Assembly: GCA_001636495.1 (NCBI GenBank)
Contig: KV440964.1
Coordinates: 2,806,666 to 2,870,665 of the forward strand
Origin: Sutcliffiella horikoshii
Lineage (GTDB): Bacteria > Bacillota > Bacilli > Bacillales > Bacillaceae_I
DNA: 64,000 bases
Direction: 5' to 3'
A program made the translations under genes and the position numbers. The first letter of the stretch is position 1. Each line of letters begins with the position of its first letter. Shown here one piece after another: positions 2,367-9,794 of this stretch. A model generated the notes under the pieces. The model saw nothing but the letters and a program-made list of their open reading frames with translations, was not told the origin of the DNA and searched no databases.

Positions 2367-2463
2367 GGGGCTGATTGCAATGCTGGTGCTTGTCTCGGTC
2401 TTCAAAACCGCTTGTGAGGCGCGTGCCGTCTCAGGTGGGTTCGATTCCCACGCAGTCCCGCCA
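2367..2463 (+). tRNA. selC: tRNA-Sec (anticodon UCA), selenocysteine
   Basis: The 97-base gene folds as a selenocysteine tRNA. The anticodon loop CTTCAAA carries TCA, which reads UGA, on a 4-bp stem CGGT/ACCG. The variable arm is long, with a 7-bp stem. The D-arm can form six pairs (one base bulged) closed by a 4-base loop TGGT; a long D-stem with a tiny loop is a hallmark of tRNA-Sec. The T-arm is GTGGG-TTCGATT-CCCAC. The acceptor pairs GGGGCTG with CAGTCCC (one G-U), and the eighth pair is an A-G mismatch. Discriminator G and an encoded CCA end the gene. Total length is close to E. coli selC (95). No selA, selB or selD is in the window. Confidence 0.85.
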
Positions 2464-2561: not shown

Positions 2562-3782
2562 TTATTTTATTTTATAGCCAACTACCCAGTGCATCCTGTC
2601 TATAAACAGTTTTGTAGGTAACCTTCTTAACATTGTATTTCTGGCTTGTAAAATGAGAGGATTTTCTATTTGAACGAGTCTTCCCATCCTTCTCGATTGT
2701 TTAACCACTTTTGTCGTTCTTGGAATCCTTTTCTCCTCGTACTCTTTAAGCGCTTTAGTAATATCAGTTGTGCTGTTTAGTGACTGTGTTAATACAAAGG
2801 CATCTTCCATTGCCTGAGCACCGCCCTGTCCTAAGTTTGGCAGCATTGGATGTGCAGCATCACCAAGCAAAGTCACTCTATTGCTACTCCAGTAGGTTAG
2901 AGGTGTACGATCAAATATGTCATGATGAAGAATATCGTCCGAATGAGTAGCTTGTATGATCGCGTTTATTGGATCACACCAACCGTTTAATAAATGTAAT
3001 GCTTTGGTTTTACGTTCTAGTTTTGGGATTTCTTTGTTTTCAGGTGTATTAATTGCAGTAAACCAAAAGTACTTTCCTTTACCAATCTTCGTAAATCCAA
3101 ATCGCTTTCCCTTTCCCCATGCTTCAAATCCTCCGCCATGTTCATCCATCAACACGTTGTCTTTTAAGGTGCAAATTCCTCTTAAAGCTGTGTACCCAGA
3201 ATAACGTAAAGGTTGAGGTCCAAATAAAATTTCTCTTACTTTTGAATGGAGCCCATCAGCTCCTATTAATACATCTGCCTCTTCTGTACTTCCATCTTTT
3301 GAGAATGCAGTAACTTTGTGTTCCGATTCGGAAAACTGCAGTAACTCTTTTTGAATATGTAAACTCGTTTCCTTCTTTAATTTGTTACGTAAGATAGTTT
3401 GTAAAGCCCCTCTATGTATAAGGTAGCTATGTGTACCATATTTTTGAGCTTGTATGTCGGTTGGTAAACACATAATTTCTTTTCCATCCCATGAGAGGAT
3501 GACTGCTTTATCTACCTTCGATCCATGATTTCGAATATCGTTTGCCACACCAAGCTTTTCTAATACAAACATTGCATTAGGAGCTAAAACAATACCCGCT
3601 CCAAGTCCTGTTAAACTGTTAGCTTTATCCCATATAGAAACCTTCCATCCAGTTCTCTGGAGTTCGATTGCCGTGCAAAGCCCCCCTATACCGGCGCCAA
3701 TAATAATTGCTTTTTTGTTCAATTGGAACACCCCATTTTCCACTGAATATTTACTACTCCGTTTCCCCTTACCTTGTTGCAT
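2562..3782 (-). CDS. FAD-dependent monooxygenase (salicylate hydroxylase-like)
   Basis: A class A flavoprotein monooxygenase of up to 406 residues. It shows the FAD-binding GxGxxG motif (IIIGAGIGGLCTAIEL, about residues 26-41), the mid-protein DG motif (VLIGADGLHSKVRE) and the C-terminal FAD ribityl motif (VTLLGDAAHPMLPNLGQGG). These enzymes use NAD(P)H and oxygen to hydroxylate aromatic or isoprenoid substrates. The substrate cannot be told here. The first ATG (3782) lacks a good ribosome binding site, and GTG codons about 15-19 codons downstream fit the usual N-terminus just before the FAD motif better. It appears to be a single-gene unit. Confidence 0.75.
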   Translation of the reverse strand: MQQGKGKRSSKYSVENGVFQLNKKAIIIGAGIGGLCTAIELQRTGWKVSIWDKANSLTGLGAGIVLAPNAMFVLEKLGVANDIRNHGSKVDKAVILSWDGKEIMCLPTDIQAQKYGTHSYLIHRGALQTILRNKLKKETSLHIQKELLQFSESEHKVTAFSKDGSTEEADVLIGADGLHSKVREILFGPQPLRYSGYTALRGICTLKDNVLMDEHGGGFEAWGKGKRFGFTKIGKGKYFWFTAINTPENKEIPKLERKTKALHLLNGWCDPINAIIQATHSDDILHHDIFDRTPLTYWSSNRVTLLGDAAHPMLPNLGQGGAQAMEDAFVLTQSLNSTTDITKALKEYEEKRIPRTTKVVKQSRRMGRLVQIENPLILQARNTMLRRLPTKLFIDRMHWVVGYKIK

Positions 3783-8351: not shown

Positions 8352-8540
8352 GGGTGTTCGGGCAATTAGTTCGCATGGTAGCCAGATAGTGAGTGTAAAC
8401 GCTACCAATAATATCGACCTCCGTTTAATTTCGGTAGAAGCGGAATAATCGCTGAATATGAAGAAATACGACGGAATATGATGGAGGATAATTATGGTAA
8501 ACGTTTATAAATCCTACTGCAGACATGATTTTGAGGCATA

Positions 8541-8585: not shown

Positions 8586-9794
8586 TTAACTCGCTTTCTT
8601 CCACTGCTTCATCACTTTGCGGATTTCTTCCGCCATTGCTCTGCAGGTTTCCACTTCTTTGTCTGTTAGCTTCATTTCCCCATACCGCACTTTGGCATAC
8701 AGTTTCATAAAACTCTCATTAAAAGTGGTTTCTCGTTGTAGCCATTCTTCTAATGTTTCATTAGGAAGCCGTCCCCTTTTTTTCTTGATAGCCAGCTGCT
8801 CTAGATCAAACATCAACCTTCTTACTTCATCTTCAGGCGGCTTTTGTTTTCTTCTGCCACTAAAGAACCCTCCGCTCATTTTGGTCATAGTGGAAGTAAA
8901 CTCCTGTTCAGAGGGAAGCTCACGCTGTTTTTTGGTGACTTTCTTCTTGTTTAATAGGAAGTAGAGAATGGTTAGGAAGAGGATCACCCCTAATGCTATT
9001 GCAATAGGATTATCCAGCAGGCTTTCCGAAGGTGTTACTAACTCCGCCGTTTCCTCTTCATTTTCCTCCCCTATCTCAACCGTACTTTCTTCTTGTGAAC
9101 CTTGGCTTTTTATGGACCAATCATGTAATCCCATAAGGAAAAATATTGGTCTTGCCAATATATTGAACACGACACTTACACCTTGTCCGAATAATGATAG
9201 CCCTGCTGTAACCATGAATTTCCCCACGGTTGCAAAAAGGGCAGAAACAGCAATTATTGAAACAAAAACTGTAGCAGTTGCCCCTACCACCATTTTCTGC
9301 ATGTAACGGTTCCCTTTTAAATTCAATATAGCCGTCCCGCTATATAAGAGAATTACCAGGGCCAGCTGTCCCCCAAAGAGGATCATCAGTGTCATTCCGT
9401 GAGGATAGTCGACCAATATACCTGCACCATATACAAAAGGCATCCAAATGAAAGATATAATCAACAAAGCAAAAGTGGACAGTGCCCTTTCCTCTATAAA
9501 GTACATAAATGCCCGGAAACTAATAAAAATACCGATGATGATGGAAAGCGCAAGGCTATATGATGTTAAATAGGTAAAAACCGCAAGTACAGGCGCAACA
9601 AGCATTATCGCAACATAACTTTTAGGCAGTTTATCATATAAAAAACCAAAAATGGCAATTGCGAATCCAAACGGTAGTAATATCCCTACCATAGAAGGAA
9701 GATTTCCTGAATCCAAGTACATAAGCAAGATAAAGAAATAAAAAATATTCAACTCAAGCAATAGATGAATGCTGTTTCTCCACAGATTACCCAT
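8586..9794 (-). CDS. Multi-pass membrane protein with C-terminal DUF4129-like tail
   Basis: A 402-residue protein with about seven hydrophobic segments in the first 225 residues, an acidic loop (EEENEEE-like, about 230-260), another membrane helix (about 265-285), then a soluble basic tail. That tail (RLMFDLEQLAIKKKRGR followed by ETLEEWLQR) resembles the DUF4129 tail found in membrane transglutaminase-like proteins. The transglutaminase core normally present in the third gene of such operons (YebA in B. subtilis) is not visible. The start overlaps the upstream DUF58 gene by 8 bases, so the two are translationally coupled. The function is unknown. Confidence 0.65.
   Translation of the reverse strand: MGNLWRNSIHLLLELNIFYFFILLMYLDSGNLPSMVGILLPFGFAIAIFGFLYDKLPKSYVAIMLVAPVLAVFTYLTSYSLALSIIIGIFISFRAFMYFIEERALSTFALLIISFIWMPFVYGAGILVDYPHGMTLMILFGGQLALVILLYSGTAILNLKGNRYMQKMVVGATATVFVSIIAVSALFATVGKFMVTAGLSLFGQGVSVVFNILARPIFFLMGLHDWSIKSQGSQEESTVEIGEENEEETAELVTPSESLLDNPIAIALGVILFLTILYFLLNKKKVTKKQRELPSEQEFTSTMTKMSGGFFSGRRKQKPPEDEVRRLMFDLEQLAIKKKRGRLPNETLEEWLQRETTFNESFMKLYAKVRYGEMKLTDKEVETCRAMAEEIRKVMKQWKKAS

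Follow-up and report, generated by a model that had tools for sequence, protein, structure and literature searches.

A selenocysteine tRNA gene with a conserved, non-canonical shape and its probable targets in a relative of Bacillus

A gene for selenocysteine tRNA (tRNA-Sec), selC, is located at positions 2367-2463 on the forward strand of the window, by which we mean the whole 64-kb stretch of DNA analyzed here (contig positions 2806666-2870665; the tRNA starts at contig position 2809032). We are highly confident that this is a working selC, which would take part, together with SelA, SelB and SelD, in the recoding of UGA in the genes for a SelW-like protein and for SelD, and that the structural peculiarities of the tRNA are kept features. 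This view builds on what can be read from the DNA: the tRNA, the genes selA, selB and selD, two in-frame UGA codons, covarying hairpins, and the observation that tRNA-Sec, SelA and the SelW-like gene are present or absent together in related genomes. With the partner genes nearby, it is very likely that certain UGA codons are read as selenocysteine (Sec). Following the known bacterial pathway, the ordinary seryl-tRNA synthetase would load tRNA-Sec with serine, SelA would turn the resulting Ser-tRNA-Sec into Sec-tRNA using selenophosphate supplied by SelD, and SelB would deliver the product to UGA codons that precede a short GUN-triloop hairpin. The recoded UGAs would be those of the SelW-like Rdx redox protein, within its CMQU motif, and of SelD itself.

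ARAGORN identified the tRNA-Sec as the sole tRNA of the 64-kb window and placed its UCA anticodon at positions 2402-2404 (+). The Rfam model RF01852 matches positions 2367-2459 over its full length (model positions 1-91 of 91) with 57.5 bits (E = 5e-9; curated gathering score, 47), and is the only Rfam model above its gathering score within the window. Genome-wide, with 150 of 303 first-look candidates scored, one of the 16 RF01852 matches listed exceeds this threshold. The gene also has G73, a long variable arm and an encoded CCA. Its minimum-energy fold is a cloverleaf with an A-G eighth acceptor pair and a bulge in the D stem, the energy of which is weak evidence alone (z = -1.61; 15 of 200 shuffles are equally stable). 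On these grounds, and on the covariation among 28 distinct Bacillales sequences described below, we regard the locus as a real selenocysteine tRNA gene of a Bacillus relative. A preliminary description of this DNA had already recognized a tRNA-Sec in a Bacillaceae genome from the UCA anticodon, the long variable arm, the CCA end and a four-base D loop; ARAGORN and RF01852 agree with it, and the covariance-model score, which it had proposed as a check, is above the gathering score. The closest named SelA, among the 80 loci kept of at least 578 confirmed, is that of Sutcliffiella horikoshii (77%), followed by Bacillus tianshenii (67%), the other 78 not exceeding 59%. In 30 of these 80 named SelA loci ARAGORN found a tRNA-Sec; in the other 50, L024 and L025 included, it is absent from the stretch analyzed. 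A 95-codon ORF (2290-2577, +) crosses the tRNA gene in the window. This frame probably arises as a side effect of the tRNA sequence, and gene callers could mistake it for a gene.

To describe the shape of the tRNA, we compared 44 Bacillales genes (30 from the named loci, the gene of the window and 13 from relatives), which amount to 28 distinct sequences. The first seven acceptor pairs are all formed in 43 of the 44 genes. At the eighth acceptor pair, A 2374 faces G 2452 (both +) in the window, as previously described, and this purine-purine combination turned out to be a conserved trait of the lineage: the position is G-A in 23 genes, A-G in 20 and A-A in one, with a standard pair in none, so that it is non-standard in 28/28 distinct sequences and 44/44 genes. 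The D arm (2377-2393, +) has a UGGU loop and a stem of six pairs. Six possible pairs and a four-base loop had been noted before, but the bulged U 2381 which the six pairs require had been overlooked. With one bulged base, 6/6 pairs form in all 44 genes, and only 2 to 5 form without it; the six-pair D stem with a four-base loop that is typical of tRNA-Sec is therefore present given this bulge.

Several measures bear on the bulged form of the D stem. Across the 28 distinct sequences, 94.9% of the cells are paired with a bulged stem versus 90.4% with an unbulged one, tRNA covariation reaches 0.429 versus 0.176 in shuffled data, and five of the six D-stem pairs show changes on both sides. The number of further pair types in the tRNA is in no excess over shuffles (401 of 500 as high). 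The pair between columns 14 and 24, as drawn, fails in 14 of the 28 sequences, and the position of the bulge must therefore be free to move with the sequence. Such a free choice lets 7.2% of shuffled D arms reach 6/6 pairs, compared with 1.5% in the unbulged form; it favors the bulged form, yet it fails to explain 44 of 44 genes. As a control, E. coli selC showed 8/8 acceptor pairs with C-G at the eighth, and an unbulged six-pair D stem. Because the A-G eighth pair and the D-stem bulge have counterparts in all 44 Bacillales genes, they are to be seen as kept features of Bacillales tRNA-Sec and not as decay.

The tRNA shares with bacterial tRNA-Sec (selC; RF01852) the UCA anticodon, G73, CCA, the long variable arm, six D-stem pairs, the four-base D loop and five T-stem pairs, and differs from it by the purine-purine eighth pair and the bulged D stem, both found in 44/44 genes, whereas E. 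coli selC has eight of eight pairs and no bulge. In place of the canonical bacterial 8+5 form it has 7 + 5 standard pairs and the eighth A-G. A tRNA-Sec with a 12-pair AT-stem has been described in several lineages and counted as tRNA-Sec (PMC5330540, Santesmasses et al. 2017). The window tRNA resembles this 7/5 class in its 12 standard pairs of acceptor and T stem and in the D-stem bulge. In contrast to the seven residues of that class, it has eight between T stem and G73, so that its eighth position is mismatched rather than deleted or bulged. We thus classify it as a tRNA-Sec that is not of the canonical 8+5 form and that resembles the 7/5 class without being a member. The same paper calls a D-stem bulge at position 13a, which by our own count is the position of U 2381, specific to Clostridiales; Bacillales are missing from its section on 12-pair forms, and no word starting with 'bacill' occurs in its main text. 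The tRNA-Sec and the Sec system are of a known kind, with a lineage-specific tRNA shape.

A UGA-reading tRNA-Sec needs SelA, SelB and SelD, as the preliminary description pointed out, and it had named their absence as an argument against its reading. We found all three genes above curated cut-offs in the same genome. They are located on the same contig upstream of the window, 9-14 kb from the tRNA: selA (contig 2795234-2796631, -; SelA profile, 568.6 bits), selD (contig 2797116-2798180, +; SelD profile, 407.9 bits) and selB (contig 2798207-2800099, -; SelB profile, 360.2 bits), which is ∼9 kb away. The same cluster contains a gene for a SelW-like protein of 79 residues (contig 2796712-2796951, -; PF10262, TIGR02174). 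ORF ends were taken from the ORF listing, and the starts of the SelW-like gene and selD are the first ATG in the translations. B. subtilis was said to lack SelA, SelB and SelD. This holds for selA, without a match, and B. subtilis likewise gave no tRNA-Sec match at E = 1e-7, but its selB and selD profiles match at E = 0.001. At this threshold all 14 controls match the two profiles, two of them, not specified individually, above the cut-offs. By tblastn, selB is present in at least 41 of the 80 named SelA loci; the rest may carry it outside the locus or below threshold. Since these loci extend no further than 10 kb from selA and some are cut by contig ends, counts from them are lower bounds.

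The preliminary description predicted that UGA is read as selenocysteine in at least one gene elsewhere and suggested searching for UGA codons followed by a SECIS hairpin. Two such genes were found, each with an in-frame UGA at the Sec position and a hairpin after it. The SelW-like protein has its Sec at residue 14 (EFCMQUNYAPK, where CMQU is the CxxU motif), and SelD has U at residue 18 (KAGUGCK); each gene has a single in-frame UGA (an internal TGA in selD), and the reading frames are conserved on both sides of it. The SelW-like protein is placed in the Rdx family by PF10262 (82.2 bits; gathering score 22.6) together with its CxxU motif, and it scores 66.3 bits with TIGR02174 (SelT/SelW/SelH; cut-off 34.2). 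It agrees with this family in motif, length and both profiles. With NF041051 (SelTWH_Campy), in contrast, it reaches 85.4 bits and stays below the cut-off of 88, and so falls outside that equivalog. Proteins of known structure that are related to it in sequence include 2fa8 (Atu0228) and 2npb, the mouse-type selenoprotein W. SelD scores 414 bits with TIGR00476 and shares the UGCK motif and the single UGA with other Sec-containing SelD proteins; no difference was noted.

The same stop codon is found in relatives. In tblastn searches of the 80 named SelA loci, at least 67 have SelD and at least 65 the SelW-like protein, and every one of these sequences carries a stop codon at the residue assigned to Sec. 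A motif search accepting either TGA or Cys yielded TGA in at least 65 loci for the SelW-like gene and at least 54 for SelD, and Cys in none; it overlooked some SelD genes (54 of 80, compared with 67 by tblastn). One internal TGA is also present in the SelW-like gene of all 14 family genomes that have this gene. Ordinary gene calling cuts such genes short, a danger anticipated in the preliminary description: the plain ORF for SelD starts downstream of its own UGA. The SelW-like redox protein and SelD itself seem to be the visible Sec users of the genome, and SelD may have a second use via SelU (tRNA selenouridine).

Downstream of the UGA, a 19-base hairpin starts after 14 bases in the SelW-like gene and after 25 bases in selD. 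We collected 61 distinct hairpins, 25 from 93 SelW-like and 36 from 82 SelD sequences (totals of 93 and 82 in which some genes of relatives appear twice). Their covariation is 0.485, compared with a shuffled mean of 0.222 and at most 0.195 in slid registers, and for each of the eight pairs there is some sequence with both partners changed. Of the two outer pairs, one is broken in 37 and the other in 29 of the 61 sequences, and the number of further pair types is in no excess over shuffles (51 of 500 as high). Most inner loops read GUN, with A-U as the closing pair in 46 and G-C in 10 of 61. In the SelW-like region of the genome itself, a longer hairpin that takes in the bases directly downstream of the UGA replaces the triloop hairpin as the minimum-energy fold; among relatives, several share this alternative and others have the triloop hairpin as minimum. 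The alternative fold is unusually stable (z = -2.90; 2 of 200 shuffles as stable), whereas the SelD region shows no unusual stability (z = -0.66; 42 of 200). The covariation favors the triloop hairpin over the alternative SelW-like fold. A UGA-containing gene with a candidate hairpin just after the codon is thus at hand, even if another fold has the lower energy in the SelW-like gene.

From the SelW-like and SelD hairpins we built a covariance model, R1, whose recovery of these two sites is partly circular. In the genome itself they rank first (SelW-like, E = 0.0017; SelD, E = 0.0074; 150 of 601 first-look candidates scored). Beyond these, two weak matches (E = 0.40 and 1.02) were rejected, since neither has a UGA flanked on each side by a long open frame. 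All 14 Sec-positive family genomes have two R1 sites each at E ≤ 0.04, the stronger inside the SelW-like match and the other ∼0.3 kb away on the opposite strand, where selD stands in the genome under study. Eight further matches (E = 0.09-0.45) are spread over six of these 14 genomes, with one of the eight in the genome under study. In the four Sec-negative genomes, the lowest E values are 0.147 (G002) and 0.498 (G004), with none up to 0.5 in G005 and G011. In the named locus of Sediminibacillus massiliensis (L072), two R1 matches of 30.3 bits each lie 1.3 kb apart (8394-8412 and 9738-9756, +), perhaps reflecting two SelW-like genes.

The distribution of the trait was followed in 18 genomes of the family, 16 of them of the genus, the genome itself included; kinship among them inflates co-occurrence. 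The same 14 genomes have all three of tRNA-Sec, SelA above its cut-off and a SelW-like gene containing UGA, and none of the three is present in G002, G004, G005 and G011. G004, G005 and G011 belong to the same genus and are 99-100% complete, and here the whole trait was lost or never gained. Weak matches to the SelA profile (18.9-22 bits; cut-off 267.9) occur in two of the four Sec-negative genomes and in three others. With three of 16 genomes of the genus lacking the trait and few selenoproteins found, this group offers a tractable system for studying the function of the SelW-like protein and the cost of Sec.

The structural departures could also be read as marks of decay, in which case the tRNA would be a relic, or else a serine or suppressor tRNA that had been called wrongly. 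Two deviations from the E. coli form, a modest Rfam score (57.5 versus 47) with a weak fold z-score, and three genomes of the genus without tRNA-Sec would fit such a reading. Yet both departures recur in all 44 Bacillales genes, whose stems covary, and the genomes without tRNA-Sec also lack SelA above cut-off and the SelW-like gene; since the three are missing together, it is the whole trait that is missing. We judge a relic highly improbable. Even if selC works, the machinery might be kept for a formate dehydrogenase, the example given in the preliminary description, and FdhA is named as the most widespread bacterial selenoprotein in the accessible part of PMC13188914. That example did not survive: neither Fdh-alpha (TIGR01591) nor molybdopterin oxidoreductase (PF00384) has a single match at E = 0.001 in this genome, which is rated 99.89% complete, whereas each matches 11 of 14 controls, including B. 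subtilis. Without an Fdh-alpha gene the organism does not qualify as a user of selenium-dependent formate dehydrogenase, and this target is ruled out unless its gene falls in a part of the genome that the assembly does not cover, making it an extremely improbable reason for keeping the system.

A larger selenoproteome, in which further selenoproteins with another form of SECIS would be the main reason to keep Sec, is compatible with a working selC that serves the SelW-like protein and SelD. Near selA, relatives have TlpA-like (WASWURCR) and thioredoxin-like (DWUxxC) genes with UGA and hairpins that escape R1; the model is therefore blind to some SECIS elements, and it scored 150 of 601 first-look candidates. 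Against this stand all 12 PF00578 matches of the genome itself, which contain no internal stop, as well as its two weak R1 matches, neither with a UGA in long open frames. On balance, we consider a larger selenoproteome possible but somewhat doubtful.

A screen for UGA-containing frames in 100 kb of the genome itself and the 80 named loci gave 3688 candidates, swamped by frames antisense to conserved genes. Among the screen results listed, SelW-like, SelD, TlpA-like and thioredoxin-like genes looked real, as judged by eye and partly by a narrower screen (104 candidates). Sites with an in-frame UGA and a hairpin of the other type, thioredoxin-like or TlpA-like by eye and likely representing further selenoproteins, are found at ∼2008 and 11632 in L030, 11567 in L033, 1400 in L042, 983 in L044, 1259 in L046, 11587 in L059 and 11605 in L087 (all +). 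These genes stand near selA in Planococcaceae and some Bacillaceae.

To our knowledge, Sec use in Bacillales has been little studied. Literature searches revealed no paper on Sec in Bacillaceae or Sutcliffiella, and for Bacillus and Bacillales no title treating a Bacillaceae tRNA-Sec, with most subscription papers outside either search. Sec use in the order has been in print since 2006: the accessible part of PMC1794560 gives three families and three selenoproteins for Firmicutes/Bacillales, and also discusses species in which SelD is the single selenoprotein.

The tRNA-Sec gene had been described as having its own promoter and terminator, and both remain plausible. Upstream of the tRNA, the sequence TTGCAT-N17-TAAAAT (2320-2348, +) is a probable promoter, whose boxes end 18 bases before the gene. 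The same arrangement, with TTGCAT in eight and TTGTCT in one, precedes tRNA-Sec in 9 of 14 genomes. A consensus promoter scan of the window misses it (the first hexamer agrees at 3/6 positions); the two sites that it lists lie elsewhere, with 2.4 expected. Downstream, a terminator-like hairpin with a T run (2518-2557) was found by a scan of the window that gave two hits versus 0.6 expected; the hairpin is palindromic, was listed on both strands, and has only four G-C pairs. With the tRNA on one side and the convergent ORF 2562-3782 (-) on the other, it may serve both. By eye, this ORF resembles that of an FAD monooxygenase, and no such ORF is found just downstream of the tRNA in the loci of 13 relatives.

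The flanks of tRNA-Sec vary among the 14 genomes, and in three of the five relatives' loci examined (G012, G003 and G010) a partial second copy is present. It comprises bases 1-47, 1-48 and 1-56, and is located 13.5, 13.4 and 19.7 kb upstream of the full gene, respectively. The split loci of these genomes are L185-L190, and the full tRNA-Sec is also contained in L111, L108 and L105. The region before the fragment matches the native upstream region by blastn in G012 and G010, and a similar TAAAAT stretch is visible by eye in G003. An integrase ORF follows ∼0.2 kb after the start of the fragment in all three; it belongs to phrog_1 in G012 and G010, and that of G003 is by eye nearly identical to that of G012. 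The order is thus the same in each: fragment, integrase ORF, the rest of the element, and the full tRNA with foreign upstream sequence. We conclude that elements of 13-20 kb with an integrase apparently split tRNA-Sec and rebuilt the gene from an element-borne 5′ part, its upstream region now being element-derived.

Integrase gene, displaced fragment and rebuilt full gene in these relatives correspond to genomic islands in tRNA genes as collected in the Islander database (PMC4383910). Different from most of these islands, as far as the accessible part of that source goes, is the displacement of the 5′ end, recorded there for 159 of 3919; this difference concerns the relatives and not the window. 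With the 5′ end displaced, the rebuilt gene acquires an element-derived upstream region. Rebuilt bacterial tRNA genes are expressed from the original promoter with very few exceptions, according to the accessible part of a review (PMC8371274). In L108 and L111, the element-derived upstream region contains TTGTAA or TTGTAT-N17-CATAAT ending 91 bases before the tRNA, with an inverted repeat, seen by eye, between these promoter-like boxes and the tRNA; L104 (G017) looks similar upstream.

In E. coli tRNA-Sec, antideterminants against EF-Tu are located at and near the eighth acceptor pair. A mismatch at this very site makes a functional reading attractive, and provides a natural test of the 8+5 rule for reading by SelA and SelB. 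As a tentative proposal, to which we give some weight but less than even odds, Bacillales could have a tRNA-Sec architecture of their own, with an eighth pair beside the T stem that is always purine-purine and a bulged D stem, to which SelA and SelB would be fitted and which would help to keep ordinary EF-Tu off. In the genus, the apparatus would be kept for one SelW-like reductase and SelD and be gained or lost as a unit, while mobile elements would repeatedly replace the 5′ half of the tRNA and its upstream region.

The 3′-terminal 26 bases of the tRNA (up to three mismatches) and its 3′-terminal 16 bases (up to two) each occur only once in the window, and a duplicated att site was rejected. 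No second tRNA fragment was found in the 64-kb window or in 36 kb around the sel genes, and no second copy in 15 kb of G017 or 35 kb of G016. In the G016 locus L106, where 19 kb downstream contained no tRNA fragment, an ORF just downstream of tRNA-Sec (207-555 counted from the start of the tRNA, -) resembles by eye the C-terminal portion of a tyrosine recombinase.
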